From: a virus
Reading direction: 5' to 3' (one strand)
Virus record (IMG/VR): IMGVR_UViG_3300017991_000090
Location: 20,745-84,744 of that record
Length of the DNA stretch: 64,000 nucleotides
The notes below the pieces were generated by a model, which saw only the letters and a program-made list of their open reading frames with translations, searched no databases and was not told where the DNA came from. Within the stretch, counting starts at the first letter, position 1; every line of letters starts with the position of its first letter. Positions 7,588 through 33,466 of this stretch are shown piece by piece. A program made the translations under genes and the position numbers.

Positions 7588-7625
7588 AATCCCTCCTTTG
7601 ATGGTATATAACTAATTTGACAATG

Positions 7626-7746
7626 ACAATTTAAACCGTTGTTGCATAGGCCCGCTGGCACCTATCCGCTCGGATAGCGGATGGCACATCCCGCTAATAG
7701 AGCGGAATGGTGCGAGGAGGGCCGAGCAACTGAGGTTTGAAATTGA
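7626..7746 (-). other. Multi-stem structured RNA element in the leader of the 71-aa gene
   Basis: Nested inverted repeats enclose one another: CAATTT/AAACC with GGTTT/AATTG outside, then GTTGC/GCAAC, then GGCCC/GGGCC, enclosing at least two hairpins (ATCCGCT/AGCGGAT and GCAC..CCGCT/AGCGG..GTGC). The result is a closed multibranch fold of ~120 nt in a 273-base gap. The leftward operon makes the minus strand the likely transcript. There is no T-run, so it is a leader structure, processing site or small RNA rather than a simple terminator. No known riboswitch core was recognised. Confidence 0.5.
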
Positions 7747-7860
7747 GAATCAAGTTAATTAATAAATTACAATGGCGAAACACCATCCTAATAAAAGTCT
7801 TATATACCAAAATAAATCTCCCATATCAGTGATTACAGTTTTTTATCTTAAATAACTTGA

Positions 7861-8070
7861 TTATATCGGCTCTTTGGAGCCGTTTTTAACTATTTGCGCA
7901 TCTTTAAAATGCATAGCCATAACGCAACCGTCTGCGTTGGTTGGCTCGCCAAGCCACTCAGTATCGTTTTCAAGCATTTGCTTGAGGTCAACGTTTTTAT
8001 TGACTTTTACAATCATACTGAAGGTGGCTTCTAATGTGACTCTCCGCGTTCCGTCTTTGCTCGTTCCCAT
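7861..8070 (-). CDS. Hypothetical protein, 69 aa
   Basis: Starts at an ATG preceded by AAGGAGTTGCG and overlaps the end of the upstream gene by 40 bases in another frame. The product looks like a small alpha/beta protein (VTLEATFSMIVKVNKNVDLK) with no recognised family. Its expression is probably coupled to the 177-residue cysteine-rich protein. Confidence 0.55.
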   Translation of the reverse strand: MGTSKDGTRRVTLEATFSMIVKVNKNVDLKQMLENDTEWLGEPTNADGCVMAMHFKDAQIVKNGSKEPI

Positions 8071-8564
8071 CGCAACTCCTTATCATGGTGTGGGCCGGGA
8101 GACCCGATTAATGCAATCTTACGAACCATATGGACCGGTTTTATAGCAATGTCCAGTTTAAGGTTTTTGCGCATCGTGAGCATAACGTTGACACCCATCG
8201 CCTCCGGTATCTTATGGTAGATTAAATCCTTATTTCCAATAAAACTTTTACACTTAACGTCAAGTTGGCTCCTGACACCATTCTGCCAGTATAACACGCA
8301 CCTGCATTGACGCTCTGACCACTCTGGGTGCTTCTTTTTCATTTTGTCGGCGAATTCGCCAATATTAAATTCAACAATAGCAAACCAGTGTGGCTTGGTT
8401 AAATCATAATATTCACCCACTTTTGGAAAGCAGCATTTATTAGGATAATTAGGGCACCCCTTCGGGTGTCCTGGGTATGGAAGCTCACACCAGGCTTTCA
8501 GTCCACCGACTCGTGTTGCTGCGCGATAATTGATTATAAGTTTATTTGTTACTTCTACTATCAT
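8031..8564 (-). CDS. Cysteine-rich hypothetical protein, 177 aa
   Basis: The N-terminal half has a cysteine cluster (C26, CPNYPNKCCFPKVGEYYDLT around residues 37-56, then CRC near 87-89 and C104). It is suggestive of metal or Fe-S binding and reminiscent of small phage metal-binding proteins, although I cannot name a family. The basic C-terminus overlaps the next gene. It is the first gene downstream of the terminator of the large structured RNA, so its transcription depends on read-through or a promoter I cannot see. Confidence 0.65.
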   Translation of the reverse strand: MIVEVTNKLIINYRAATRVGGLKAWCELPYPGHPKGCPNYPNKCCFPKVGEYYDLTKPHWFAIVEFNIGEFADKMKKKHPEWSERQCRCVLYWQNGVRSQLDVKCKSFIGNKDLIYHKIPEAMGVNVMLTMRKNLKLDIAIKPVHMVRKIALIGSPGPHHDKELRWERAKTERGESH

Positions 8565-8579
8565 TTAATCTCCGTATTT

Positions 8580-8611
8580 AAAAAAAAGAGGCGTTTTACC
8601 GCCCCCTTTTT
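8580..8611 (-). terminator. 3' terminator of the large structured RNA
   Basis: The minus strand reads GGGGGCGG-TAAAA-CGCC followed by TCTTTTTTT. This fixes the orientation and 3' end of the upstream non-coding transcript, and it lies immediately before the ribosome site of the 177-residue gene. Confidence 0.75.
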
Positions 8612-9086
8612 GTGCGACTAAATCGATAAGTTCGCAAGCACGTTGACGGCGTGTAGGGGTGGAATGGTCCTGCAGCATTCTTTCCTCGTCTTTTCCGAAA
8701 CTCTTCTGAAAAAGCCCTTTTTCTGAAGAGTAGAGGAAGAGTAAAGAATGCGTAACGGACCTGGAACCCCGGGCGCCGTAACACGTCTTGCGCTTAACAC
8801 CAAATTAATGGCTGTGACGAAACATCACAATTAAGCGACTCGCACAACATAACTTAAGATAGATTAACCGGTGGTGGCCACGAGCCATGGGCCCTGGATA
8901 ACACCTCCGATTGTTCCGGAAAAACGCAGTGACTCCGGAACCCTCGGAGGAGTTCTCCCGGGCCCATGGCGTGGGCCACCACCCGACGGGCAGCAAGATT
9001 CTTGCTGCCCGGAAGGGGCCGGGCATAGCGTTTTTTCCGTCTAACACCCTACCGAAACAGTAGGTTTAGAACTTATGTTAATACAA

Positions 9087-9101
9087 CTAAAGATTGAAAT
9101 A
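9087..9101 (-). repeat. 15-base repeat inside the structured RNA (3' copy)
   Basis: CTAAAGATTGAAATA (plus-strand reading), identical to the copy at 9464-9478. The flanks are also similar (TTAA-TACA before it). On the minus strand each copy is followed by AT-rich sequence and then a small hairpin with a TGTTTC loop, suggesting two related modules. Confidence 0.7.
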
Positions 9102-9463
9102 TCCTTCTATTACTGAAACATCGACGTGATCTCAGGTTACCGGTCTGGCTATGGCCAACGCCATTGCCAGTCCGGTCACCTGTGTGATCTCGTCGCTGTT
9201 TCATAATCGAAGGAACAAGCGAAGGCCCGGAAACTCTCCTGATGAGCTCTGGGTTCGAGATGAGCCAAGTCATCAGGACCCAGCTTCCAGGTGCAGCGGG
9301 TCAACCGGCGAACCTGGACGCTTGGGTCCTGATGATATGGAATCATCTCGAACCCAGAGCTCATCACTCCCAGTTTCCGGTGCCGCAGCGCCTTACCTTT
9401 GCTTAGTATTGCCGGTGAAACACCAGCCTTTCTCTTGTATAAAATGTATAAATTAAGTACATG

Positions 9464-9478
9464 CTAAAGATTGAAATA
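9464..9478 (-). repeat. 15-base repeat inside the structured RNA (5' copy)
   Basis: Second exact copy of CTAAAGATTGAAATA, 377 bases from the first. It separates the 5' half of the RNA (9485-9800) from the 3' half. It could be a shared protein- or RNA-binding element, or part of a promoter. Confidence 0.7.
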
Positions 9479-9850
9479 ACGCATCCATTTACTCCTGGCT
9501 GAGTGACTGATTGTCTGGTCGTAACATCTGCAGCTTAGCGGGCGCAGCCGGCGGTGCTGCCGATGTTAGCGACAAAGACATAAAGTCAACGAAGCGTGGT
9601 GTAAATGGCATCCGTTTATTAGCCAATATCAGCAAACCGTACATCTGGCGCATCGCCTCCAAGGGGGTGGTGGGCGCCAAGAGAAGCGCAAACATCAATC
9701 CGGCTCCAGCCGGAATTGATGGAAGGGCTTCTATATTGGCGCCGTCCAACCCTCCTGGAGGCGTAGCTCCGGATGTGTGGTTTGCGCCAATATTTGCGAT
9801 CTGCTTTTATTTGGTAACACTGAAGAAGCTTCAGCTTATCCCCGTGTACT

Positions 9851-10888
9851 TTAATTTCCTTCTTTATCTAATAATGTTTCTGAGCCCTTCTTCTGGGCTG
9901 ATTCAGTTACTTCTTGCTGTGGCTTGTCAGCATCGGTAGCAAAATTTTCTGCAATTGATTTCTCATCCTGCTGGTCAAGCGGTACAGCTTCCTCGTCTGG
10001 ATTTACTTCCAGCAACTTTTGCTCAAGGTCGCCTATATCAAGCATTGACCCAGTACCGCCACCGCCTTCTATTCTGGCTTGGTCGACCTGGAATTTTAAT
10101 CCACGCTTAATAGGCTCCATTACGAGCTGTATGAAATCCGGTGTAGGTATCAGGTCTGTTATGAAAACATCCCTTCCTCCGGATTTAATCTTTTTATGAA
10201 TTAAGTATAACTTGGCTCCAAAAAAGCCATCAAATTTTAACGATTTGTTCGCCTCTCGTTCTTTTATGGAATGTGCAACGCGCAACAGGTTCCATAATTG
10301 AGAGATAGAAGATTCAATACCCAAAATGGTATTAATCGATCGTGTCTCAAACCTGTATGGATTTGGTGTCATGTCAATAACCGGAAAGCACTTCATAAAT
10401 CCAATCTCTTTACACTTCTTAGATTGAAAATCAGGACAATCCTTATAAAGACATTTTCTTTCTGTCCATTCACGGTCTCCATCAGGAGTGAATTTCAAAA
10501 ACTTAGCCGTATCATTCAAGCCTTGGCTCTGACACAAAAGGCCTTCAGAAGATGAATACATAGCCAGCTTACTTTCCCACATCTCTTGAGGTGTTTGGTA
10601 CAAGCTGACAATTTCAACCCGCCGCGGCGTTTTGCTGTCAAGAGTTGTTTCAAGCGCTTTTTGAACTGTTTCATTTAGAACCCAGTCTTTTATAACGACC
10701 TGCTCTTGTGAACTTCCAACCCTTTTTGTCTGGGTAACTTCCTTCAACATACGGAAGAAACCAGCAGCTTTGGGCGCATTCTTTTTATTAGGGCCTTCGT
10801 TTGGTGCATACCCTGTTGAAATCTTTCCTCTATATTTTATTATCATATGAGGAACGCCAGCATCGTCGTGAGTTAATCCTTTTATCAT
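9851..10888 (-). CDS. Zinc-binding phage protein resembling recombination-directionality-factor-like family, 345 aa
   Basis: The central part contains a cysteine group (KCLYKDCPDFQSKKC, then C..GFMKC) followed by PYRFETRSINTI. That pattern is reminiscent of phage proteins often annotated as hydrolase/metal-binding or Gp3-like recombination directionality factors; the match is from memory and not verified. The last ~75 residues are acidic and low in complexity. ATG follows GAAGGAGG. Twenty-one bases separate it from the SSB-like gene upstream, so both are probably one transcription unit. The large structured RNA begins shortly after its stop codon. Confidence 0.6.
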   Translation of the reverse strand: MIKGLTHDDAGVPHMIIKYRGKISTGYAPNEGPNKKNAPKAAGFFRMLKEVTQTKRVGSSQEQVVIKDWVLNETVQKALETTLDSKTPRRVEIVSLYQTPQEMWESKLAMYSSSEGLLCQSQGLNDTAKFLKFTPDGDREWTERKCLYKDCPDFQSKKCKEIGFMKCFPVIDMTPNPYRFETRSINTILGIESSISQLWNLLRVAHSIKEREANKSLKFDGFFGAKLYLIHKKIKSGGRDVFITDLIPTPDFIQLVMEPIKRGLKFQVDQARIEGGGGTGSMLDIGDLEQKLLEVNPDEEAVPLDQQDEKSIAENFATDADKPQQEVTESAQKKGSETLLDKEGN

Positions 10889-11732: not shown

Positions 11733-12326
11733 TTAGAAAGGGAGGTCATCTGCCCAATTAGGGTCGTCGTCATGCTCCACAACACTGTCGATGTTGTCAT
11801 ATTCGGCAAGAGCTGCTCTGACATCACCGGGCGTTACAACGTCGAACTCCCAGTCTAAATAAGTAATGTGTACAGGTTCAACTATTCGATTATTGTAGTC
11901 ACGATTCCACATCCCGTATTCAATTGTAATCGGGTGCATTTCAAATGATACCTGCACAGGATTAAAGCACTTGAATTTATCAAGTATATCCTGCGGTATC
12001 GGTTCAGGGTGAATTAATTTATCGACAGCCTTCTCAGACAACTGCAGCTTATTCATCATATAACGCTCCAACCAATCCTTTTTAGGATTGACGCGGAATA
12101 TTGAATGCAGGTACATAAACTGCAATAATTCAGGGTCGTTGTCTAAAAACATGTCCAATATTTTTTCTCTATCGTCGTTGACACGGTTAAACACCTTAAG
12201 GAGGTGCTTATACTGTACTGACGAATTTTTTATACGTTTGCACCATTTCATTTCGATAAAGTATTCCAAACATTCCTGGGTGTACTTTGCATCAAGACTG
12301 TCCCAATCAACCCGCTTCTTGTGCAT
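11733..12326 (-). CDS. Hypothetical replication protein with SSB-like C-terminal tip, ~197 aa
   Basis: The body is helical and mixed charge with no recognised domain. The C-terminus is strongly acidic and ends DDDPNWADDLPF, close to the SSB tip DDDIPF. This suggests binding to partners that normally recognise SSB tails, or mimicry of SSB. The start is uncertain: I use the ATG inside the end of the primase-helicase gene, giving a 20-base overlap; an in-frame ATG 34 codons upstream also exists. Neither has a clear ribosome site, so coupling to the primase-helicase is likely. Confidence 0.6.
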   Translation of the reverse strand: MHKKRVDWDSLDAKYTQECLEYFIEMKWCKRIKNSSVQYKHLLKVFNRVNDDREKILDMFLDNDPELLQFMYLHSIFRVNPKKDWLERYMMNKLQLSEKAVDKLIHPEPIPQDILDKFKCFNPVQVSFEMHPITIEYGMWNRDYNNRIVEPVHITYLDWEFDVVTPGDVRAALAEYDNIDSVVEHDDDPNWADDLPF

Positions 12327-15300
12327 CAGAATGTTCGTCACTCGACAAATGGTCTTCGAGTTTCTTAATGACATCAGCATCCGATTCATGCTGTGTAATT
12401 TCGAGTATATCCGAGAGTTCTCTTTCATCTTTGTTTGCTACCATGTCAGACAACCACTCATTAAATGCTGGTGTTTTACGATAAGTCGACTTGGCCCTGA
12501 CAAGGCACCTCCTTATGATTAAAGTGTTAATAAGTTTTTGAGTTCCGATGTTTACAGGCATCCCTGTCGACTTAAAATCATCGTTTGACGCATCGACCAT
12601 TAATAGTTCGCGGTCATACACCCTTTGTAAATAATCACAGAACAGTTGCTGTAAAGATTTGTCCGTAAACTCTTCTTCCAGCAATAAAGACCTGGGGTTG
12701 ATATACTTGATGATATTTTCCATAAACCTCATATCGCCAAGAGATTCCAAATCCTTCTGCTGCTCCGAATATATGTCAAGCTGCATATTTGGATGGCAGT
12801 ACAGCTTAATTAATAAATTCATTACAAATTCAATGTGTTCCTTTTTTACTAATACCTTATTCCAGTCATCATCTGGTGTAGAGTACATCATTGCTGCTAC
12901 AGAAGTCCCCATCCTCGTCAGCTTGAGCCGTGTTTCATGGTTAATAAGCTGGGTGTTGGTGTGGAACTTATTCAGCAATTTTTTCTGGCAAGAGTTGATA
13001 TATTTTTCTATACCCTCTTCATAGACCACTTCTTTTGGAGAGCGTGAGTGCGTCCACATCAGAAGGTACCTTGATTGAAACTCCGTAAACTCGGTGAGCA
13101 GCGGAGTATATATCGGCGTGAACGAGTCGTCTTTTATATCGCTCTGCTTCACAATCCATGCTACATCGAACCGCGAAAGGATCTCATCCTTAAAGCAAAG
13201 GTGTTTTAGAAACCTGACCCCGTTACCGAACGACGCAGCTTTATCAGACGTCCATGCCCGGGGGTTTGATAGGAAAATCTTCCTTACCCGTGCAGGAGCC
13301 TTCTTGCAACCAGCCACAGTGGTTACATCAGCTATTCCAGAAGAACGAAGAGATGTTATCCCATTCAGCGCGTCCTGATTTATATTACTTAATTCATCGA
13401 TAACGACTACGCCGCCATCATTCATAACCATCTTCCCCCATGAAACAACCGGTTTATTCTTGGTATATTTTATACCACCCAATAGCCCTGCCCTGGTAAC
13501 AGCGCTCGAACCGGCAATCAGGTCTCCAACCTTATAGTGATTCATTAGGAATTGACTTATCATAGTTTTACAACATCGTGATTCCCCGCCTATTAATACT
13601 TCAACCCATCCTCTTTTAAGAGAAGGGAACAGGGTCTTGTTATCCAATTCGAGCTGTGAGAAGAATGCCAGGTCGTTAAGAAGAAACATCTCCCTCCTTC
13701 CATTGACACCGGCTGCCTGGGCAAATATATCATATCTGCGTTCAAGAGCCTGCTCAACAGTCTCACCTTCTTTTGGTCTGAACACTTTCAATATGTCATG
13801 TGTTTCCTGGTCCATTACAAAATTTTCGGTCGAGGTTGCTATTGGTTCAGCTTTATGGGCAAAAAGCACAGCCCTGGAATCGTTTGGCGCCCGTGTTTGA
13901 ACGCCTTTGAATTTATACGACCTGTTCGGGTAAACGTCCATATCTCCAACAATGTAAGCGTCCATTTCTATAGCAGAGCTTTCCATAGCCTTACTCAAGA
14001 TACCCTCTCCATACTCAGACACATCCCTTGTCAAGCGTACACGTAACAGCTTTTCAAATGTTTTGTTGGTAATGCTGACAAAGTTACAACTCGGATTTAT
14101 TCCGGCCAGCTTTTTAATGTACATATCACGCTTATCGTCAGACACTTCTATCATACTCAGAATGTCGTGGGTGTTTATTTTAATACACCCGAGATTGTTA
14201 TAATGCTCTTTTGGTATATTGCCATTTACCAACACAAACTCTATCTCAGGAGACTCTCTAAATTCTGGAAAGCTTGGCAGCACACACTTCTTACACGATG
14301 CGTACAATGTACTTGAAGGGCACCCAGTATGTTTACAGCTCATAGACAGCTCTTCCGGATAAAGATATGCTGCGTCAATAAAGTCACCAACAGACGCAAC
14401 CATTTCAAGAATTTTGCTGTCATCATGTGACGAATACCTCGGCAGCCTCGACTCCTGAAGAGTAACCTTGTATAGCTCTGTTTTGACACGTTCTACATTT
14501 TCAGTATAAACCGGAGTGTTCTTAACAAGAGAAAGAAACCTCTGAGTAGCGAGTTCGTCGAATCCATTCTTCTCCATAAAATCAGTGAAGTCCTTCTCCG
14601 CACGTTTCATCTTCTTGTTACCCTTGGCGTTGGTAACCTCCACCATCTTCTCCGGGTCAAGCCCGAACGGGTTGTCCTTAGATTTATCGAGGTTGACAAT
14701 CTTAATCTGTTTTGCGTAAGGATACAGTGACTTGGCAAGCTTCTTCGCCCCGGCAATACCGGTTTCATCGGAGTCCAGGCATATGATAATCTCTTTGTCG
14801 GTAAACAGCTGTCGCGCTTTTTTCTCACCGAACACCTTAACGACGTCGGTATTACGCTCGGCACCCATAGTCACAGCACCTTCGATGCCGTGGGCGATGC
14901 CGCAGTACATGTCCGGCTCACCGCCGAAGAACATAATCTGGCTCTTGGTGAAGTTGTTCATGGGCGATGGGAGTATCTCCCGGCCCTTGTGCAGGAACAG
15001 CCATTTAAAGGCTCTATTCGTATTGAAGGGATCATACACCTTCAGATTTATCAGGTCGCCGTCAGCGTGTATCATTGGGAAAATATACCTGCGCCGGCCA
15101 TCCAGGCCGATGCGGAAGTTCCTGACCATATCCTCATCGATACGCCTTTTATCATACAGGTAGGAGAGCCTGTCAGGGTCGTTCAAGAGATTGTTGACGT
15201 ATCCATCCAGTTCTTCCATCGGAAGTGATGAGACAGCCTTCGCTTCCTGTGCAAGCTGTTCTGAAAGAACAAACGGCTTACCCTTGGCTGTTTTATGCTT

Positions 15301-15732
15301 TTTCTGGCATTTTGAATACAGCTCATATAACTGCTGATTCCATTCATCCTCACCGTCATTAAATGTGGTTGAGAACCGTATACCGGTTTGTGACTCGTTA
15401 ATACTGAGAAAGTCAATAAGAAAATCGGAGTAGTGATCACCCCACTGGCTTGTTCCTTTAAGATATTCAGTCCAGTATTTCTGGAAGTTCCCCTTCTCTC
15501 CGCATGTATGGCAATAGTACTGCCCAGTGTCGTTGTTTACTGACATGGAGGCGTGTGAATCGACCCCCTGAGAATGCGCTCCAGCGTTGATACAGCGGAA
15601 GTTTTTGTTCGCGTCCTGATACCATCCGAGGCGTTTATATATCTCGTGATAATCGCCCGACATCAGCATTTCGGCAGTTGCAAATAAAATTTTCAAATCT
15701 GCCTTTTTTAACTTATATTTATTGTTGGACAA
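12307..15732 (-). CDS. Primase (zinc finger + TOPRIM) fused to MCM-like AAA+ helicase
   Basis: A 1141-residue replication protein. The N-terminus has a CHC2-like zinc region (C47, then CHTCGEKGN at 74-82). A TOPRIM fold spans ~264-345 with FFGGEPDMYC and CLDSDETG. A second cysteine set lies at 466, 471, 480 and 483. The ATPase at ~705-870 reads like an MCM module: GGESRCCKT (Walker A, ~715-723), RAGLLGGI, DGGVVVIDE (Walker B, ~772-780), LSNP (sensor 1) and LSRFD (arginine finger, ~852-856). A helical, winged-helix-like C-terminus follows. It should both prime and unwind DNA at the phage fork. The start is TTG behind AAGGAGG. DnaB-type helicases are more usual with TOPRIM primases, so the MCM-like partner is notable. 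Confidence 0.82.
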   Translation of the reverse strand: MSNNKYKLKKADLKILFATAEMLMSGDYHEIYKRLGWYQDANKNFRCINAGAHSQGVDSHASMSVNNDTGQYYCHTCGEKGNFQKYWTEYLKGTSQWGDHYSDFLIDFLSINESQTGIRFSTTFNDGEDEWNQQLYELYSKCQKKHKTAKGKPFVLSEQLAQEAKAVSSLPMEELDGYVNNLLNDPDRLSYLYDKRRIDEDMVRNFRIGLDGRRRYIFPMIHADGDLINLKVYDPFNTNRAFKWLFLHKGREILPSPMNNFTKSQIMFFGGEPDMYCGIAHGIEGAVTMGAERNTDVVKVFGEKKARQLFTDKEIIICLDSDETGIAGAKKLAKSLYPYAKQIKIVNLDKSKDNPFGLDPEKMVEVTNAKGNKKMKRAEKDFTDFMEKNGFDELATQRFLSLVKNTPVYTENVERVKTELYKVTLQESRLPRYSSHDDSKILEMVASVGDFIDAAYLYPEELSMSCKHTGCPSSTLYASCKKCVLPSFPEFRESPEIEFVLVNGNIPKEHYNNLGCIKINTHDILSMIEVSDDKRDMYIKKLAGINPSCNFVSITNKTFEKLLRVRLTRDVSEYGEGILSKAMESSAIEMDAYIVGDMDVYPNRSYKFKGVQTRAPNDSRAVLFAHKAEPIATSTENFVMDQETHDILKVFRPKEGETVEQALERRYDIFAQAAGVNGRREMFLLNDLAFFSQLELDNKTLFPSLKRGWVEVLIGGESRCCKTMISQFLMNHYKVGDLIAGSSAVTRAGLLGGIKYTKNKPVVSWGKMVMNDGGVVVIDELSNINQDALNGITSLRSSGIADVTTVAGCKKAPARVRKIFLSNPRAWTSDKAASFGNGVRFLKHLCFKDEILSRFDVAWIVKQSDIKDDSFTPIYTPLLTEFTEFQSRYLLMWTHSRSPKEVVYEEGIEKYINSCQKKLLNKFHTNTQLINHETRLKLTRMGTSVAAMMYSTPDDDWNKVLVKKEHIEFVMNLLIKLYCHPNMQLDIYSEQQKDLESLGDMRFMENIIKYINPRSLLLEEEFTDKSLQQLFCDYLQRVYDRELLMVDASNDDFKSTGMPVNIGTQKLINTLIIRRCLVRAKSTYRKTPAFNEWLSDMVANKDERELSDILEITQHESDADVIKKLEDHLSSDEHSDAQEAG

Positions 15733-18490: not shown

Positions 18491-21400
18491 ATGCCAGATT
18501 CTAAACAGAAGGTTTTGCAGAAGCTGTCAAAGATGGATGCTGACGCTCGCAGCAACGTGTTGATGAATACGACAGTTTCTGGCACTGTACAAAGAATACT
18601 TGAGTCCGTTGAAGATGATGAAGTTAAGCTGAAGGTCAACAAAATCTGGGTAGATAGAAAGCACAACAATAAAGACATCTCTGCTCAACAGTCGGTCAGG
18701 AATAAAGGCCAGATATGGGGAAACGATTTACGGGCAGACCTTGAGTTTGTTGACAAAACTACCGGAAAGGTTGTTGACCGGGTTCCAAATATTAAAGTTA
18801 CTAACATTCCAAAAATTACAGACCGCGGCACATTTCTCGTTAAGGGTAATGAGTACCAGTTTACAAAACAATCCAGGTTGAAGCCCGGCGTATACACAAA
18901 GCGACAGACCAATGGTGAGATAAGCTCTTTCTTCAATGTTGATAAGACCGTCGATTTTGAGCGAGGATTTAACAATAATTTCAAAATCAATTTCAACCCT
19001 GAGAAGAAAACATTCACCATGGGGTATGGCTCCAAGAACATACCTCTTATCAATGCTTTAAGAATGGTGGGTGTGAGTGAAAAGGAACTGACAGACCGAT
19101 GGGGAAAGTCGGTCTACGAAGCCAATTCAAAAGCTTATGATAAACATGCTACCAGGGACCAGAACAAATTATACGAAGCAATATTTGGCCGCCCTCCGGC
19201 AACTGGAACACCAACGGCAAAAATAAATGAAGAGATAAAAGAACGACTTTTTGTCACAGGCTTAGACCCTGAAACTACTCAAGTTACGTTGGGTAAGCCA
19301 TATAAAAATGTCAACAAAAATGTTCTGCTTGATGCATCCAATAAAATTATTGGAATACATAAAGGTGATGTTGAAGGTGACGACCGGGAAGCTCTGATAT
19401 TCAAATCCTTTTATGACATCGAAGACCATGTCAGGGAGAAGCTGGTCAAGAACAGTGGAAAAATTATCAACAATATTAAGTACAAGCTTAAAAAGAATAA
19501 ACAGATTAATAAATCAATCAGCTCCCAGGTATTTGACCCGTTCGTTATAGGTGTCGTAACCAGCAGCCAGCTGTCAAACCCACCAAACCAGACCAACACC
19601 ATGTCAATAATCGGAGAGGGTAGTAAGTTCACCGTAATGGGTGAGGGTGGTATAGGAACCACCAATGCTATCACCAATGAGACCAGGCAGATATCAAATA
19701 GTGAAGCAGGATTTATCGACCCGCTTCATACACCTGAAGGCCCGGGTATTGGAGTTGCGGTGCACAGCACTGTTGATACGATAAAAGTTGGCAATGATTT
19801 ATACAGTCGCTTTCTGTCCCCAAAGGGTGAAACGGTTATGATGCGCCCAATGGACACATGGGGTAAGAATATTGCTTTCCCGGATGAGTATGACACCTCC
19901 AGAAAAGTTCCAAAACCGAAGAAGAGGAAAGTCAGGGTTATCAATAAAGGTGATATCAAAGAGGTTGCTGCATCAAAGGTTGACAGTATCATTGCCAGCC
20001 CGTCAGGTATGTTCGACACATCTGCAAACTCAATACCATTCCTGAATTCAATCCAGGGTAACCGTGGGCTGACAGCTTCGAAAATGCAAGAGCAAGCCCT
20101 GCCGTTAAAATACCGTGAGCAGCCTGTGGTTAATATTGTTGATGAAAACGGTATGTCTATTGGCGGAATGATGGCAGAGACAATGGCACTCCCAAAGTCC
20201 CCAGCAGCTGGAACCGTAACCAAGGTAACGCCGGGTAAAATAACTATCACTGATAAAAAAGGTGCCGCACATGATGTGCAGCTTTACAATAATTTCTCAT
20301 TAAACTCAGAGAGTTTCATTCACAACGAGCCTCTTGTCAAAGAGGGCGATAAGGTTAAATCGGGACAAACTCTTGCCGACAACAATTTTACCAAAGATGG
20401 TAAAGTTGCTATCGGCACAAATCTCCGGGTGGCGTACCTTCCATACAAGGGCTACAACTATGAGGATTCCGCGGTAATGTCAGAAAGTGGCGCGAAGAAA
20501 TTAACCTCATTGCATATGCGTGATTTTAAAGTAAAGAGGTCAGCTAAAGGCACGTTCTCGAGAGATAAGTTCAAAGCGTACTACCCTGAAGAAGCAAATG
20601 CCGAACAGCTGTCGAAGCTGGACAAAGACGGTGTTATTAAAAAGGGCCAGAAAGTAGCTCGTGATGATATTCTTATTGCGCATATGGAGCGGCGCGTCCC
20701 GACAGCTGATGATAAGGCGCTTGGGCGTCTTGACAAACAGCTTATGAAAGACATGACCAATAATGCCATCAAGTGGGACAATGACCATGTTGGAAAAGTT
20801 ACCAATGTTGAGAAGCATGGTAACAGCGTCCTTGTCAGCATCAAGACCGAAGAACCCCTTCGTGAGGCTGATAAAATATCCGGGCTGCATGGCAATAAGC
20901 ACATTATATCAAAGATACTTCCCGACCATGAAATGCCTTATGACCCGAAAACCGGAAAACACATTGAGTTGACTATGAACCCGATTGGTGTATCCAATCG
21001 TATTAATACATCTCAGATTCTGGAAAATGCAGCGGGCAAAATCGCTGACAAATCAGGGAAGCAGTATAAAGTTTTAAATTTCTCTGGTGAAGATAATTCA
21101 CAAAAAGTAATGGATGATTTGAAAAAATGGGGCCTGGACGATAAAGATATTTTAATCGACCCTGAGACGGGAAAGCCTTTTTTAAACCCGGTGGCTAATG
21201 GGAAGTCAAACATCCTGAAGCTGGAACACATTGTAGAGCATAAATTCTCTTCACGATATAAAGACGGGTACGATGCAAATGAGCAGCCAGTAGCCGGTGG
21301 AAAGACCGGTGGTAAGAATCTTGCCAGAATGGAAATGGCTGCAATGCTTGCTCGCGGCGCCAATGAAAACCTGAAGGAGATGTTTCAAATTAAAGGCCAG

Positions 21401-24400
21401 AAAAATGATGAATTCTGGGAAGCCATGGAAACTGGCCAAAGCCTGCCACCGCCCAAGAAGGCATTTGTGTGGGACAAGATGCTTTCCATGATGGCTGGTT
21501 CCGGCATTAATGTGGAGCAGAAAGGGAAAACCTTTACTTTAAAGCCCATGACAGATGATGAGATATTAGCAAGGTCAAGGGGCGAGTTAAAACGCCCACA
21601 GGAAACATACCGTAAAAAAGACATGTCCCCAATGCGGGAAGGGCTGTATGACCCGGTTAAAGCTGGTGGAATGTTCGGAGATCACTACACTCATTTTGCT
21701 CTTCCGGAAAAAACCCTTAATCCAATTACCGCCGCTGCCACAGCGTCTCTTCTTAACATGCCTTTAAAGACTCTCAACAGCGTGATGGATGGTAAGCAGT
21801 TTATTGATAAAACAACCGGTGAGATAGTCAAGCCAGGTTCACGGAATGCTATATCTGGGGGGCCTGCTATTGAAATGATGCTGGAGCGTGTTAATGTTAA
21901 TAAAGAGCTGAAAAATACTCAGGAGCTGGCCCAGACTATTACCAATCCGTCAGAACTAAATAAGGCGCACCGCAAGATTAAGTATCTAAAATCGTTAAAA
22001 GACAATAAAATGAAACCAACTGATTACATGGTTTCAAACGTTCTGGTAACACCATCCAAATACCGTCCGATGGTAGCTATGGGGCCAGACAATGTAATCA
22101 TAATGTCTGATATCAACAATCTGTATCAGACGGCTGGCCACACTGCAAAAGCGCTCAAAGGCCTGAAGTCTCAATTGAAGAAAAGTGTCGGAAATGATGA
22201 TATTGAGAATCTTCAATTGGCAGAGACTCGTGGCGCAATGTACCAGGATTTGAAAGCGATATCCGGGCTGACCGAACCGACAGCATACCTTCATCGCGTT
22301 CAGGATAAGAAGGGTTTTATTACACAGATTGATGGCGGTAAAAAGAAGCAGACCAAAGAGGGTTTCTTCCAAGACCGGGTGCTTGAGCGCAGGCAGGACT
22401 TGGTCGGACGCTCTACCATTATCCTCAATCCCGACCTCGGTGGTGACGAGATTGGTCTCCCGAAAGACATGGCAACAAAAATGTTCCAGCCATTTATTAT
22501 GCGTAAATTGATTGGTTGGGGGTATAAGCCTGGTGAGGCCCAAAAGCACATTAAAGAAAAGTCTCCAATATTCGAGCGGGCACGACAGGTCGTTTCAGAT
22601 GAGAGGCTCATTATAGCAAACCGGGCACCGACGCTTCATCGGTGGAATATGACAGCCTTCAAACCAAAGCTGACAGATGGCAAATCCATTGAGGTTCCGT
22701 CTGTTGTGATTAAAGAGAATTTCGGCGGAGACTTTGACGGAGATACGTTCCAACTACACACTCCGATAAGTGCAAAAGCTCTCCGGGAGGCGGAGGCAAT
22801 GAAACCGTCAGCCAGTATGCTTAAGACCGGGTATGATTCAGTGCTGAATGCTCCTGAAGCAGATATGGTTGCTGGCAGCTGGTTAATGTCGAAGGGCAAG
22901 GGTGGGCAGAATACAAAACTAAAATTCAAAGATATTGAGGAAGCAAGGTTCGCTTTTAATAATAATAGGTTTACATACGGTGACACTATAGAGATCAATG
23001 GTCGTAAGGCTCCGTTCGGTATGCATGAAATTAATTCTGTTGTTCCAGAAGATACTCAGAAATGGGATGTTGAGCTTGATTCTAAAAATGTGCAGGATTG
23101 GGTTAAAAACGTAACCAAGAAGCACAATGGAAAGGTTGCGCTTGGTCTCGCTGATAAAATTAAAGATATTGGTAACAATTATGTTACCCAGTATGGATTT
23201 ACACTCGGGGTCTCTGATACTCTGGCTGACAAAGACCTCAGAAAAACATTGCTGGATGAAGCTTATCAGAAATCGCTTGGGCGTTCAGATAGAACTGTGG
23301 TCAAGGCGTATTCCGATGCGACAATCAAGGGCAAGAAAAAACTCGAAAAGAAATACGGTGATTCGACCATGCTCGGTGTCGGGATACAATCAGGGGCTGG
23401 TAAAGGTATTGATAATACCTCTGCTATAACGCTTATGCCCGGTATTGTCATGGATGCGAATGACCAGCCAATACCGGTTCCGATTACCAAATCATACTCA
23501 GAAGGCCTAAATACTTCAGGGTATTGGGCCGCTGCTCATGGAGCCCGCGGCGGAAGTATTAAGAAATCAGTTCAGTCTTATATGCCGGGCTGGCTGACAA
23601 AAGACCTGATGAACTCAATCTACGAAACGCGCATCCATAATGATGAGCCAGTAGATGTTGAGGGTGTCGAATACAAGATTGATGATAAGAAGGCTATAAT
23701 GAACCGATACCTTGCCCGTGATGTTAAAGACACCGGTGGTAAGATTATCGCCAAGCGCAATGAGCTTATTGACAGCGACACGATGAACAAGATGGTTCAG
23801 AATAAAGTCAAAAGTATATTTATCCAATCGCCCCTTACCGACCCAACACCAGGAGACGGGTTCTCAAGCTGGTCATATGGCACGGATTATGAGGGTAAGC
23901 GTCACAATATCGGTGACAATATCGGTGTAATCTCTGCCCATACAATTACCGAGCCGTCACTTAACCTTGCCATGAAATCGTTTCATACCGGCGGCGCTTT
24001 TAAAGGTGATGATACACACCAGAAAGGTACCCGCTTCGACCAGCTGGACAGAACATTGCGGTTTACCAGAAACCTTCCGGACAAGGCTACCCTTTCAGAT
24101 ATGAGCGGAGAGGTAAAGAGTATTTCCAAGTCTCCTATTGGAGGTTGGGACGTTGTCTTATCTGATGGAAAGAAAGAAACCAACCGGTATATTGACCCGA
24201 ACAATCGCGTCTCGGTAAAGAGGGGTGACAGGATTAAGATGGGAGACAAGCTGTCAACTGGAACTCCCAGTGCTCACGATATGTTGAAATACAAAGGTAT
24301 GAAAGATACTCAAAAGTTCCTGGTCGAACAGATTGATGACATTAATGAGGGTAAGCTCGACCGTAGAGATATTGAAACAATTGTCCGTGGGATTACCAAT

Positions 24401-24835
24401 ACAACAAGAGTGCTTGACCCTGGCTCCAGCGCATATACCCCTCACGACATCGCCCCTCTTACTGCCGTAGAGCATTATAACAATAATAACGAGAAGGAAG
24501 AAGATATTGAGCAGTCTGAGGGAGACCATCTCGCTCAGAATTATGGCACGCACAAAAAGCATCAGAAAATTGATAAGAGAACAATCGACGACCTCGGCAA
24601 AAAGGGTGTTAAGCGGGTCAAGGTCTTTAAGGATAGAATTAAACACGAGCCGTTCTTAACGCCGGCGGGTATCAGTGCGAAGGCTGCGTCTTCAGAAGAC
24701 TGGATTGCACGCCTTGCTCATAACAGAATTAGAAAAGTTCTGGAAGAAGGTACCACTCAGGGTTGGAAAACTACAATCGACCCGAAGAAAGGGCACCCGA
24801 TCCCTCAGTACGTGACAGGAGAATACACATGGTAA
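18491..24835 (+). CDS. Single-chain multisubunit-type RNA polymerase (beta and beta-prime fused)
   Basis: A 2114-residue polypeptide carrying both catalytic subunits in the order beta then beta-prime. Beta landmarks: DPLHTPEGPGIG, GYNYEDSAVMSE (from residue 654), and ADKISGLHGNKHIISK followed by NPIGVSNRIN. Beta-prime landmarks: LVGRSTIILNPDLGG, ANRAPTLHRWNMTAFKP, the catalytic GGDFDGD (DFDGD 1414-1418), EGLNTSGYWAAAHGARGG, and a trigger-loop region ISAHTITEPSLNLAMKSFH followed by TGG. The beta-prime N-terminal zinc-finger cysteines are not seen; the corresponding stretch reads GLYDPVKAGGMFGDHYTH. No alpha, omega or sigma gene is recognisable nearby. It likely transcribes phage middle or late genes. 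The ATG has only a weak GAGAAG site. Its last codons overlap the start of the next gene. Confidence 0.93.
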   Translation: MPDSKQKVLQKLSKMDADARSNVLMNTTVSGTVQRILESVEDDEVKLKVNKIWVDRKHNNKDISAQQSVRNKGQIWGNDLRADLEFVDKTTGKVVDRVPNIKVTNIPKITDRGTFLVKGNEYQFTKQSRLKPGVYTKRQTNGEISSFFNVDKTVDFERGFNNNFKINFNPEKKTFTMGYGSKNIPLINALRMVGVSEKELTDRWGKSVYEANSKAYDKHATRDQNKLYEAIFGRPPATGTPTAKINEEIKERLFVTGLDPETTQVTLGKPYKNVNKNVLLDASNKIIGIHKGDVEGDDREALIFKSFYDIEDHVREKLVKNSGKIINNIKYKLKKNKQINKSISSQVFDPFVIGVVTSSQLSNPPNQTNTMSIIGEGSKFTVMGEGGIGTTNAITNETRQISNSEAGFIDPLHTPEGPGIGVAVHSTVDTIKVGNDLYSRFLSPKGETVMMRPMDTWGKNIAFPDEYDTSRKVPKPKKRKVRVINKGDIKEVAASKVDSIIASPSGMFDTSANSIPFLNSIQGNRGLTASKMQEQALPLKYREQPVVNIVDENGMSIGGMMAETMALPKSPAAGTVTKVTPGKITITDKKGAAHDVQLYNNFSLNSESFIHNEPLVKEGDKVKSGQTLADNNFTKDGKVAIGTNLRVAYLPYKGYNYEDSAVMSESGAKKLTSLHMRDFKVKRSAKGTFSRDKFKAYYPEEANAEQLSKLDKDGVIKKGQKVARDDILIAHMERRVPTADDKALGRLDKQLMKDMTNNAIKWDNDHVGKVTNVEKHGNSVLVSIKTEEPLREADKISGLHGNKHIISKILPDHEMPYDPKTGKHIELTMNPIGVSNRINTSQILENAAGKIADKSGKQYKVLNFSGEDNSQKVMDDLKKWGLDDKDILIDPETGKPFLNPVANGKSNILKLEHIVEHKFSSRYKDGYDANEQPVAGGKTGGKNLARMEMAAMLARGANENLKEMFQIKGQKNDEFWEAMETGQSLPPPKKAFVWDKMLSMMAGSGINVEQKGKTFTLKPMTDDEILARSRGELKRPQETYRKKDMSPMREGLYDPVKAGGMFGDHYTHFALPEKTLNPITAAATASLLNMPLKTLNSVMDGKQFIDKTTGEIVKPGSRNAISGGPAIEMMLERVNVNKELKNTQELAQTITNPSELNKAHRKIKYLKSLKDNKMKPTDYMVSNVLVTPSKYRPMVAMGPDNVIIMSDINNLYQTAGHTAKALKGLKSQLKKSVGNDDIENLQLAETRGAMYQDLKAISGLTEPTAYLHRVQDKKGFITQIDGGKKKQTKEGFFQDRVLERRQDLVGRSTIILNPDLGGDEIGLPKDMATKMFQPFIMRKLIGWGYKPGEAQKHIKEKSPIFERARQVVSDERLIIANRAPTLHRWNMTAFKPKLTDGKSIEVPSVVIKENFGGDFDGDTFQLHTPISAKALREAEAMKPSASMLKTGYDSVLNAPEADMVAGSWLMSKGKGGQNTKLKFKDIEEARFAFNNNRFTYGDTIEINGRKAPFGMHEINSVVPEDTQKWDVELDSKNVQDWVKNVTKKHNGKVALGLADKIKDIGNNYVTQYGFTLGVSDTLADKDLRKTLLDEAYQKSLGRSDRTVVKAYSDATIKGKKKLEKKYGDSTMLGVGIQSGAGKGIDNTSAITLMPGIVMDANDQPIPVPITKSYSEGLNTSGYWAAAHGARGGSIKKSVQSYMPGWLTKDLMNSIYETRIHNDEPVDVEGVEYKIDDKKAIMNRYLARDVKDTGGKIIAKRNELIDSDTMNKMVQNKVKSIFIQSPLTDPTPGDGFSSWSYGTDYEGKRHNIGDNIGVISAHTITEPSLNLAMKSFHTGGAFKGDDTHQKGTRFDQLDRTLRFTRNLPDKATLSDMSGEVKSISKSPIGGWDVVLSDGKKETNRYIDPNNRVSVKRGDRIKMGDKLSTGTPSAHDMLKYKGMKDTQKFLVEQIDDINEGKLDRRDIETIVRGITNTTRVLDPGSSAYTPHDIAPLTAVEHYNNNNEKEEDIEQSEGDHLAQNYGTHKKHQKIDKRTIDDLGKKGVKRVKVFKDRIKHEPFLTPAGISAKAASSEDWIARLAHNRIRKVLEEGTTQGWKTTIDPKKGHPIPQYVTGEYTW

Positions 24836-30302: not shown

Positions 30303-30567
30303 AAAAACTATGTTGATGAAGCTGAATCTGGCTGGGGTCGGGGGCCAGACAGGGGCAACCCTGACTGGCCGCACGGTTCCCGCATGTTAGTGCGGGAGCC
30401 GTGACCAGGCATTGATCGACACAAATCCACATTTGTAAAACAGCTTCTGTTTTAGAAATTGGATTTGTTATACGCCCCGTGCGTTTTTGTGAGCCACAGG
30501 TGCCTTATATGCCCTCCGAAGCGAAACGCTTCAGTCGAGAGCTCAGCTCTCCCTCCATCAACTGAGT
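30303..30567 (-). ncRNA. Structured RNA at the end of the RT operon (retron-like msr-msd candidate)
   Basis: No ORF. On the minus strand GTTGATGGAG (30553-30562) pairs with CTTCATCAAC (30312-30321): ten pairs with one G-U, closing the whole element like retron a1/a2 repeats. Inside, in order: GAGAGC-TGA-GCTCTC; GAAGCG-TTT-CGCTTC; small stems; ACAAATCC/GGATTTGT with inner AAAACAG/CTGTTTT; CACGG.TCCCGCA/TGCGGGA.CCGTG; GGCCAG.CAGGG/CCCTG.CTGGCC. It begins directly after the stop of the 61-residue gene and ends in a terminator. Retron RNAs usually precede the RT gene, so the 3' location is unusual. Identification as the RT's template RNA is inference. Confidence 0.65.
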
Positions 30568-30784: not shown

Positions 30785-31273
30785 TTATTTACCCTTCGCC
30801 TTAAGCATCTGCTCCTTGACAATAGCATCAACAGCATTGTTATACTGATTTGATGCATGCCCTTTCACCCACTTAAAGGTAAAGGATTTAAATTCGGGGG
30901 TAATACTATCCAACCTTTTCCACAAATTCAAGTTTAATACTTTCTTACCGTTTGATTTTCTCCAGCCGTTCCTCTTCCATTCAGGAAGGTATGCAGTATA
31001 GTTCTCACTTACATACTGCGAATCTGGCCTTACTATACAATGGTGGTTTGAGGCGCCGTCATAAGAATCGTCCAGCTCTTTCTTTAATGCCTTTAACCCT
31101 TGAATAACAGCGAGCAATTCCATCTGATTATTGGTGACGTTTATTCTGTAGCCACCTCCTTTTCTTATTATTGTGTTGGCAGGGTCTAATATAATCCACC
31201 CGTACCCTCCAGGACATCCAGCATCTCTCTTGTTTCCAGAGCAACCACCGTCAGTGTAAACTGTAAATGTCAC
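30785..31273 (-). CDS. rnhA: Ribonuclease HI
   Basis: Degrades the RNA strand of RNA-DNA hybrids. The fold's landmarks are all present in 162 residues: YTDGGCSGN (first Asp), NQMELLAVIQGL (Glu), RPDSQYVSEN (second catalytic Asp), WVKGHASNQ and NNAVDAIVKE (last Asp). GTG start behind GGAGAAATTA, 14 bases after the RT stop. Cellular retrons rely on host RNase H to trim the template RNA; here the enzyme is encoded in the RT operon. It may equally serve primer removal in phage replication. Confidence 0.92.
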   Translation of the reverse strand: MTFTVYTDGGCSGNKRDAGCPGGYGWIILDPANTIIRKGGGYRINVTNNQMELLAVIQGLKALKKELDDSYDGASNHHCIVRPDSQYVSENYTAYLPEWKRNGWRKSNGKKVLNLNLWKRLDSITPEFKSFTFKWVKGHASNQYNNAVDAIVKEQMLKAKGK

Positions 31274-31287
31274 TAATTTCTCCGTTT

Positions 31288-32340
31288 CTAATTAAATTTT
31301 TCTCCTTCAAATTTTAGCAACTGATCCATGTATTTCTTTCCTTTACCATGGTCAATTGACATAACAAATGAGGCGTACCCTTTTAATTGTTTCAGAAGTG
31401 ATTTGGTAGTTTTATCAGCGTGTTTAACAGTGGCGTGGTGTACCTGTGCCCGGAATAGATGCATCCTTTTCCGCTGTATTGATGTTTTTACGTTAACAAC
31501 AACACCGCACACCTTAAGCCTTCCTGCTTTTGATTTCCACAATGTTTTCTTTTTATTCGGAGTAAATCCATAAGCCCACAGCTGTCTGTATGCCTGCTGT
31601 TTTATGGCTTTCTTTAACTCTTTTTTAGTCAAGGTTTTACTGCTGAACGCAAGGTCGTCAGCATACCTGGTATATTCAATGTCTCGCTCTTTGCAATATC
31701 TGAGCATGGTCTGGTCGAAACCCCTCATAACGATATTCGCTATCATTGGAGAGGTGGGAAACCCCTGTGCAGTATATCCATCAACAGTGCAAAGGTCAAT
31801 TATCCGGTTAAACATGGACTGGTAGCCAGTAGCCTCGCAATATTCTTTAATGACTACGGCTTTTATCTCTTCGCACTTAAACTCATAATTCTGGTTTTTA
31901 TTATGATAAAGCGATGGGCTGCACCTTCCATCCAGCATCCGTTCATAAAATTTGCAATATCTGCAAATATGCTTATTGCCGAACAGGCAGTTTTTCAAAT
32001 GTTCCGTTGATATGGAATCAAAGAAACTCTTAATGTCAATCTTACCAAGAGAGTTTGCTCCGACATGGAGCTTTGCATTTGTTGCAATACCTTTCTTTGC
32101 CACAAAGCCATGAGCAGCCTCACTCGGCCTGAACCGGCGAAGAAAGCGCCAGTAAATTGACTTCTGTATATATTTTAATCGTTTGTCGGGTGCAACGATT
32201 TGTCTTTTGGATCCGTCCTTTTTAGGGACTGTTATCCTATCAAGATGATTGTGTTTATTTAGAATTATGTCATCAATTTCTTCAATTTCGGCCCCAAGAA
32301 TCTTGGGCATGTCAAAATTACTGAGTGGAGCCTTTATCAT
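31288..32340 (-). CDS. Retron-type reverse transcriptase, 350 aa
   Basis: RNA-directed DNA polymerase of the retron/group II lineage. Motifs in order: AAHGFVAKKGIATNAKLH (residues 75-92, with the retron-type NAxxH), IDIKSFFDSI (motif A, 101-110), AQGFPTSPMIAN (191-202), YTRYADDLAFSS (catalytic YADD 226-229), GFTPNKKKT (258-266), and RLKVCGVVVN (274-283), comparable to the VTG motif used for RNA recognition in retron RTs but with Cys for Thr. An unusual insert between motifs A and B has C126, C129, C140 and C156. No maturase or endonuclease domain. It overlaps the DHH gene by 23 bases and is followed by RNase HI, a 61-residue protein and a structured RNA. Confidence 0.88.
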   Translation of the reverse strand: MIKAPLSNFDMPKILGAEIEEIDDIILNKHNHLDRITVPKKDGSKRQIVAPDKRLKYIQKSIYWRFLRRFRPSEAAHGFVAKKGIATNAKLHVGANSLGKIDIKSFFDSISTEHLKNCLFGNKHICRYCKFYERMLDGRCSPSLYHNKNQNYEFKCEEIKAVVIKEYCEATGYQSMFNRIIDLCTVDGYTAQGFPTSPMIANIVMRGFDQTMLRYCKERDIEYTRYADDLAFSSKTLTKKELKKAIKQQAYRQLWAYGFTPNKKKTLWKSKAGRLKVCGVVVNVKTSIQRKRMHLFRAQVHHATVKHADKTTKSLLKQLKGYASFVMSIDHGKGKKYMDQLLKFEGEKFN

Positions 32341-33466
32341 TAGTTTTGTCTTCCTCCTGTTCTTCTACGGCCTTTTTGCGGGCCTCGTTCATATCCTTGG
32401 CTTCTCCTGTTTTGACCATATCAGTAGCTTCGGTCTCAACCGGATCCACCTCAATATCCACTCCTACCTTTTCCATCTCAGCGTCTGCCATTTCGCCCTC
32501 CGGATTAAGTATTGTTAAAATGTCATCAATATGTTGTTCCAATTTATCTTTGGTAATAACTGAGCCACCAACATCATGGTGGCCACCGCCACTTATGGTG
32601 TAATTAAACCCTCCCAGCATTTGACCAATATGAACACCATTGGTAAAATTGCCCCATTGATTAAAACCAACATCGGTCTGTACCCTGTCGCCACCGAGGT
32701 GTACAACTCTGAATGCATATTTTACATCAGGCCTGACATAATATTCAGAATACCTGGGGTAAGCATACAGTCTGTTCATCTCAGTGATCGCAACCGGTCC
32801 ATTTATAACCATCGCCTTTTCAATGGACAAGGCTGCCTTCCGTAACTTTGCAACAGCCGACTGGTCAATACCGAGAGTTAGCAACGCCTCATTAATGTCA
32901 AAGTCTGCTGCACAAATCACTTCGACTATTCTGCAATACAGCGAATCAATCGTAATAGTCATCTGCTCAAGGTGCGCTTTTAATATCATCAAAGGCGTAA
33001 GACAGCTGAATATATATTCAACAGATTCATAGCCGGCGCTGTCAATCATATCAACCATATTAATCATATGCGGGTCAATCGGCAAATACCTTCCAAGCGG
33101 GTTGTATGTAAGGTGTTCATAAATAATTTTCGCCGCAGATTTTGCCTTTGGGTCATAACACTTGTTCGGATCAATGACCGGCTTGTCACCAAGGGTTTTA
33201 TTGTAATGGTGGTCAATCCATAAGTTGGCCATTTCATGGTGCTGGTAGTCAACAATTATACAAATGTCGTTACCATCCAAATCCGCATCTTCTATGATTT
33301 TATTAAACTTATCACCCCTCTGTGAAGACCTCACAGGTCTTAGGGTGTACATTCTACCATCGACCACGTACTTTAAAACCAAAGCCGCGCTTATAATACC
33401 ATCCACATCATCGTGGAAAAAGATGTGAAACATACCGTTGTTCATTCTTGGTATATGCCCTTTCAT
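32318..33466 (-). CDS. DHH-family phosphoesterase, 382 aa
   Basis: A DHH/DHHA1 hydrolase of the NrnA/RecJ-like group, which cleaves oligonucleotides, cyclic dinucleotides or single-stranded DNA with two metal ions. Motifs: FHDDVDGIISAAL (residues 17-29), IVDYQHHEM (~71-79), the signature DHH at 85-87, and a DHHA1 glycine motif GGGHHDVGG near 294-302. The last ~60 residues are acidic and disordered. Its end overlaps the RT start, so it is co-expressed with the RT. A role in processing RT products or short oligonucleotides is inference. Start uncertain: in-frame ATGs at codons 1, 8 and 12. Confidence 0.85.
   Translation of the reverse strand: MKGHIPRMNNGMFHIFFHDDVDGIISAALVLKYVVDGRMYTLRPVRSSQRGDKFNKIIEDADLDGNDICIIVDYQHHEMANLWIDHHYNKTLGDKPVIDPNKCYDPKAKSAAKIIYEHLTYNPLGRYLPIDPHMINMVDMIDSAGYESVEYIFSCLTPLMILKAHLEQMTITIDSLYCRIVEVICAADFDINEALLTLGIDQSAVAKLRKAALSIEKAMVINGPVAITEMNRLYAYPRYSEYYVRPDVKYAFRVVHLGGDRVQTDVGFNQWGNFTNGVHIGQMLGGFNYTISGGGHHDVGGSVITKDKLEQHIDDILTILNPEGEMADAEMEKVGVDIEVDPVETEATDMVKTGEAKDMNEARKKAVEEQEEDKTNDKGSTQ

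Follow-up and report, generated by a model that had tools for sequence, protein, structure and literature searches.

A heavily folded, non-coding stretch of a phage genome very probably consists of retron templates. Read from its sequence, it would be five retron msr-msd modules (A1 to A5) arrayed in tandem on the minus strand, from which a reverse transcriptase (RT) acting in trans would make msDNAs. Its carriers are large phages of a little-known group. A retron RNA is the template that a reverse transcriptase copies into a small hairpin DNA, and retrons are described as one RT, one noncoding RNA (ncRNA) and usually one effector, acting against phages. We arrive at the retron identity because the layout of the modules is that of a retron ncRNA and because the genomes carrying them encode a retron-type RT. 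The case is carried by module anatomy, covariation, synteny in seven lineages and the co-encoded RT and RNase H. Judged from these genomes, the novelty lies in the many templates, mostly in trans, set in ordered arrays, in a phage.

Location and layout of the modules

The array was found in a 64,000-nt stretch (positions 20,745 to 84,744) of the IMG/VR virus record IMGVR_UViG_3300017991_000090, hereafter the window. Between the open reading frames (ORFs) at 9851-10888 and 8031-8564, both on the minus strand, the ORF list contains no credible gene (8585-9856, minus strand), in agreement with a first-pass annotation of this DNA. The long inverted repeats and local GC enrichment reported there were likewise recovered: a repeat search returned six long pairs, including the 24/24-bp pair at 9240-9263/9343-9366, the predicted fold contains about ten, and GC content is 0.50-0.53 as compared to 0.38-0.45 in the flanks. 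Scoring 638 segments of 200 nt against shuffled sequence placed most of the strongest folding z-scores within 8601-9900 (down to -12.1; whole-window median, -0.66). Folding energy is about equal on the two strands and thus does not by itself give the strand, which is given by the G-U asymmetry described below.

The first-pass annotation had taken 8581-9800 for one ornate structured RNA, either a divergent GOLLD or ROOL member or a new class, whose halves might be separate RNAs. Its description as phage-borne, minus-strand, heavily structured and non-coding stands, as does its terminator at the end of the stretch; the single RNA gives way to a row of separate modules, so that the suggested division was well founded, the parts being putative retron msr-msd modules. 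The extent was real but incomplete, since the array begins at 9856 and two more modules lie beyond those coordinates, the fifth at 7809-7602 and a sixth near 30.4 kb. Membership in GOLLD or ROOL fell away: cmscan with E-values up to 10 returned no GOLLD, ROOL or OLE match, only chance microRNA-like long hairpins, and an Rfam scan yielded no family at gathering thresholds. A tRNA search found none near the array, and a tRNA-like or tRNA-island reading was dropped. The array DNA matches only itself within its own contig, and a search for similar phage DNA in INPHARED gave chance matches only. The proposed features, with their basis, are as follows.

9851-10888, minus strand: conserved gene for a Gp3-like protein (PF18897); in seven lineages the array follows directly downstream
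9450-9856, minus strand: array unit A1 (msr-msd module); fold, position-matched units in the relatives L006, L007 and L016
9079-9442, minus strand: array unit A2; descriptor, fold (z -19.6)
8845-9080, minus strand: array unit A3; repeats, descriptor, fold (z -12.4)
8610-8847, minus strand: array unit A4; descriptor, fold (z -7.2)
8585-8615, minus strand: terminator-like hairpin followed by T8, just past A4; sequence reading and fold
7602-7809, minus strand: array unit A5; z-scan of the window, descriptor
30312-30562, minus strand: putative local retron ncRNA (U6), the last element of the RT operon; z-scan (30.2-30.6 kb), descriptor, relatives

These amount to six modules (A1-A4, A5 and U6) in the 84.7-kb contig of the window. 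All follow one order: a closing stem (a1/a2), a G, an msr stem-loop, one or more long variable msd hairpins, and (U)UAG-a2. In A2, a1 TTATACAA is followed by the putative priming G, the msr hairpin at 9411-9427 (GCTGGTG-TTT-CACCGGC), an msd of two hairpins with a 54-bp stem, CTTTAG and a2 TTGTATTA. A3 comprises a1 TAACATAA, G, an msr hairpin (9048-9064), a 44-bp msd stem, CTTAAG and a2 TTATGTT, and contains a perfect 12-bp hairpin at 8987-9011; A4 reads a1 TTGTGCGA, G, msr hairpin (8812-8830), msd hairpin, ATTTAG and a2 TCGCACAA. A5, set apart from A4 by two inserted ORFs (8031-8564 and 7861-8070), has a1 TGGTATATAA, G, an msr hairpin at 7771-7787 (GATGGTG-TTT-CGCCATT), a 44-bp msd stem, AATTAG and a2 TTATATACCA. 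A1 pairs a1 AAAGTACA with a2 TGTACTT and carries the msr stem-loop GCTGAAG-CTT-CTTCAGT and two long msd-side hairpins; its junction is slightly deviant (a1-CG ... UUUAGCA-a2). In U6, the closing stem GTTGATGGAG/CTTCATCAAC encloses an msr hairpin at 30516-30534 (loop UUU) and a conserved CCCCGACCCCAG segment. Two further features caught our attention: the second msd hairpin of A2 (9117-9200) shows regularly spaced single mismatches, with 5-bp runs between 1x1 mismatches, and U6 homologues of seven lineages share a near-invariant CCCCGAC..CAG segment near the 3' end, in which array units differ.

In described retron ncRNAs, a1/a2 measures 8-30 nt with the priming G at the end of a1, the msr has one to three hairpins of 7-10 bp with loops of 3-10 nt, and the msd stem spans 10-50 bp with mismatches; for Eco1, the msr stem bound by the RT has 8 bp and a UUU loop (PMC6868368). 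Going by their sequences, the modules have this defining anatomy of a retron, with deviations. The G directly after a1 is invariant in all cores, in an AAG or GAG context rather than the usual TAGC. Every unit has an msr stem-loop of 6-9 bp with a three-base loop, mostly NUU (GNUUC), and U6 has two msr hairpins in most lineages. The msd stems range from 8 to 57 bp, most exceeding 18 bp and two units falling below 10 bp.

Covariation and strand-specific selection

The first-pass annotation had proposed looking for covariation among homologous phage loci, and the stems do covary. Among 34 distinct module cores, double changes occur in 12 of the 14 stem pairs, that is, in every pair that varies. 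The covariation score was 0.92, as compared to 0.23 after shuffling and 0.09-0.18 for slid versions. Stem cells pair in 98.5% of cases against 65.0 ± 1.5% with shuffled partners, a pairing percentage inflated by the partial choice of cores with a descriptor that demands pairing; synteny and double changes between matched units are unaffected by that selection. In the closing stem, 97.4% of a1/a2 cells are paired and seven of eight pairs show double changes, and for the local unit, U6, the msr hairpin shows them in six of nine pairs over the seven lineages.

If the msr acts as RNA and the msd as DNA, a G-U bias is expected in the former and none in the latter. G-U pairs divide 28:2 between the gene strand and the other strand in a1/a2 plus msr, as opposed to 106:95 in the msd (Fisher p = 1.3e-5). 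The 28:2 bias is a mark of selection on the RNA strand, and the balance in the msd is as one would expect of a part whose DNA form matters or that is strand-neutral; at the level of sequence, then, selection on the msr is of the RNA type and that on the msd is strand-neutral.

The two parts also diverge at different rates. Between matched units of L006, L007 and L016, core identity is 67-98% and msd identity 33-59%, with shuffled msd at 26-36%; for the window units and their matched relatives, the values are 49-81% and 19-49%, respectively. Change is thus almost free in the DNA-encoding part, with a1/a2, msr and the priming G held constant.

Such conservation bears on whether the modules might be relics, either inverted-repeat DNA elements or decayed duplicated retron templates that no RT reads, as has been suggested for Retron-Nex1. 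A reduced A5 in L016, the loss of A3 in L007 and the deviant A1 of the window would suit decay. We nevertheless consider this very unlikely: an array of four to five units is held at one position in seven lineages, every varying stem pair shows double changes, and an RNA-strand-specific G-U bias needs continuing selection as RNA. Slightly less probable still is a divergent or new GOLLD/ROOL/OLE-like ornate RNA working in its folded form, perhaps as a homo-oligomeric cage: although about 1.2 kb long, phage-borne, very strongly folded and conserved in location, and although phages carry GOLLD and ROOL as well (PMC12286853), the array has no match to those Rfam models at E-values up to 10 and no tRNAs nearby, its repeated modules bear retron junctions and recur singly and in a second array elsewhere, and its msd stems lack an RNA-strand bias.

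Related phages and the reverse transcriptase operon

Scanning IMG/VR with the Gp3-like protein identified two contigs at 63% identity (L006 and L007), and a scan with the MCM-primase a third close relative (L016). At the position matching the window array, each of the three has some 1-1.2 kb of non-coding DNA with four to five modules. Every module has its own closing stem and runs from stem-A-G through a short GNUUC stem-loop and one or two long hairpins to (U)UAG-stem. Nucleotide similarity to the window array is nearly absent (one 18-nt match). As these scans gave only three close relatives, it was an RT scan of IMG/VR that opened the wider family, adding five contigs (RT identity, 55-64%), of which two are close relatives of one another. 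The Gp3-like gene is present in three of the five, with the array directly downstream in each (G006, five units; G008, five; G010, four). The array thus holds a conserved place beside the Gp3-like gene in seven lineages—the window and six others—with msd sequences diverged almost beyond recognition. A sixth further contig (L092) encodes an RT at 61% identity and has no Gp3-like gene in its 68 kb. INPHARED contained no Gp3-like protein, and GTDB genomes gave no match to the primase or RT patterns, so that no host was identified.

Modules also occur away from this position. The L006 and L016 contigs hold a second array of three units beside a structural-type gene pair, and two relatives have a unit adjoining a homologue of a 728-aa gene, the counterpart of 30562-30312 in the window. 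The 186-kb L006 contig carries ten modules, one of them a single unit. Over whole contigs (~984 kb), a strict motif descriptor returned 25 matches versus three in a reversed-sequence control; G004, an unrelated phage contig that lacks the RT, gave no match. Chance probably accounts for a few of these 25, among them single isolated ones in G005 and G006.

A5 of L016 (16988-17080) is cut down to its closing stem and a small hairpin, its msd apparently lost, and L007 is without A3. Directly after A5, L007 carries an IscB-type ORF start (8317-8769; RRXRR, PF14239, 3e-40) with an omega-RNA-like leader, and between B1 and B2 of the second array in the L016 contig lie an IS605-type TnpB (L043:7085-8197; Cas12f1-like TNB domain) and a 183-aa ORF. 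Small ORFs also break up the arrays of the window, G006 and G008.

The genes of the RT operon, which lies ~20 kb from the array in the window, are listed below.

32318-33466, minus strand: 382-aa phosphoesterase of the DHH family, whose gene opens the operon
31288-32340, minus strand: retron-type RT, 350 aa; Pfam, PADLOC, PDB and NCBIfam
30785-31273, minus strand: RNase H, 162 aa
30568-30858, minus strand: small Lys-rich ORF, lying between RNase H and U6; the three close relatives have counterparts of 58-59 aa

The order DHH, RT, RNase H, small Lys-rich ORF and ncRNA (U6) is kept in the three close relatives, whose RTs are 72-74% identical to that of the window and likewise have a U6 unit beside them. 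The window RT matched Pfam RVT_1 (1.3e-18) and 68 PADLOC models, the best being retron RTs (RT_XIII, 1e-63); its best PDB matches were retron RTs, with Ec86 first (6e-26), and it matched the NCBIfam retron St85 RT at 1.5e-61, below the cut-off. Its motifs include YADD, NAKLH for the NAxxH of region X (NAKLH, NAEPH, NAELH and NADCH in four lineages), and VCG at the place of the expected VTG in region Y (VCG or ICG). NAxxH is absent from the RTs of diversity-generating retroelements, and VTG substitutions occur in validated retrons too (PMC6868368). A conserved Cys-rich insertion (CRYCK..YERMLDGRC), possibly zinc-binding, separates motifs A and B of the RT. Only the RT among the operon genes was matched by PADLOC, with no retron effector model hitting the DHH protein, the RNase H or the small ORF, and neither the RT nor the array has a recognised toxin-like gene next to it. 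A retron, defined as an element that makes msDNA, need not include an effector. Elsewhere in the window, a single 2114-aa ORF (18491-24835) combines RNA polymerase beta and beta-prime domains (fused multi-subunit RNAP), and 12307-15732 encodes a replication protein with a primase-like part (Toprim) and an MCM-type AAA+ helicase, whose relatives in Microbacterium and Bacillus phages are distant (~24%).

From this arrangement we infer that the RT reads the array templates and that these yield msDNA. The minus-strand array would be transcribed with the neighbouring genes and fold module by module, closure of a1/a2 placing the invariant G at the start of the short msr stem-loop. The phage's retron-type RT (31288-32340) would recognise that stem-loop, prime from the 2'-OH of the G after a1 and copy the msd into a branched RNA-DNA molecule (msDNA), the template then being removed or trimmed by the phage-encoded RNase H; retron RTs are reported to need RNase H1 for processing and termination (PMC8989520). 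One RT could thereby serve U6 locally and the array in trans, yielding a panel of hairpin msDNAs from six templates in the 84.7-kb window contig or ten in the 186-kb L006 contig. The msr loops bear on this proposal: in G008 and G010, array loops are UAA, AAA, UAU, UAC or CAU instead of NUU and the local unit has UAA, as expected if one RT reads both. In G006, array loops are mostly UUU and the local unit has AAU.

That mismatch is one of several points against the retron reading, the others being the AAG/GAG context, VCG/ICG in the RT, templates far from the RT, the position of U6 downstream of it, the deviant A1 junction, the short msd stems of G8_A4 and L16_B2, and the L016 A5 without an msd.

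Possible roles and comparison with known retrons

What the hairpin DNAs would do is a matter for tentative proposals. One, to which we give a minority share of belief, is that the modules are retron templates whose msDNAs act as sponges or decoys for host DNA-binding proteins (MutS, restriction enzymes or other nucleases), serving counter-defence or raised recombination. Overproduced msDNA with a mismatched stem titrates MutS and raises mutation and recombination (PMC6868368). The modules contain 77 single mismatches, and the many different templates have msd sequences free to change with the hairpin form kept, both consistent with a sponge, although the mismatches may be drift and the host is not identified. 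Across the array units of all lineages, 6-bp palindromes are slightly enriched in the msd parts (112 versus 88 ± 9), but the enrichment is weak, and hairpin tips would account for part of it; a restriction-site decoy signal was set aside for that reason. Speculatively, a panel of rapidly changing hairpin DNAs would occupy host DNA-binding or DNA-cutting proteins during infection. The fuller version, in which six to ten changing msDNAs from swappable templates are deployed per infection as RT-based counter-defence against host DNA-acting proteins, is rather doubtful.

Comparably doubtful is that the phage turns its retron templates on rival phages, by superinfection exclusion or abortive infection, with msDNAs as sensors restraining a toxic effector. 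Most retrons examined to date are reported to act as sensors against phages (PMC13158370, PMC12548924), and several msDNAs could sense several triggers. Against this, no retron effector model in PADLOC matches the DHH protein, RNase H or small ORF, nor is a toxin-like gene recognised beside the RT or array. Because no effector model matched the operon genes, we lean slightly toward sponges or decoys.

Should the retron reading hold, it would recast retrons, described as single sensors, as what may be a phage's factory for DNA hairpins. Comparing templates read by a common RT would make the purpose of msDNA directly testable, and the arrays suggest natural multiplexed templates for RT-based DNA production.

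GOLLD and ROOL resemble the array in being large, ornate, phage-borne and strongly folded; the array differs in being modular and RT-linked and in lacking a covariance-model match to them. Retron-type RTs are known from phages and prophages, including Retron-Eco3 in phiR73 and RT genes in Pf and Klebsiella phages (PMC6868368). These share with the present system a retron-type RT within a phage genome, at no more than ~28% identity to the window RT, and the literature on them, as distinct from their sequence records, yielded no report of multi-template arrays. In the open-access literature, where an earlier description is possible, the one precedent we found for an RT with several ncRNAs, or for retron arrays in phages, is a remark on Retron-Nex1 (Ne160) of Nannocystis exedens, whose duplicated msr/msd sequences were suggested not to be read by the RT (PMC6868368). 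Those duplicates are scattered in a bacterial chromosome, whereas here phage lineages share ordered arrays in which a1/a2 is position-specific; a single RT for as many as about ten dispersed templates would be, as far as we found in that literature, undescribed. The closest known systems are Eco1 (Ec86), St85 and retrons with type III and XIII RTs, which are alike in RT homology, a1/a2 stem, priming G, UUU-type msr loop and long msd hairpin. Compared with Eco1/St85-type retrons, the phage system has its own RNase H, no recognised effector and a Cys-rich RT insertion. Those retrons have one ncRNA, usually upstream of the RT, plus an effector; here U6 alone shares a cassette with the RT, downstream of it, and with the array units ~20 kb away the phage system comprises five to ten templates, most of them far from the RT.
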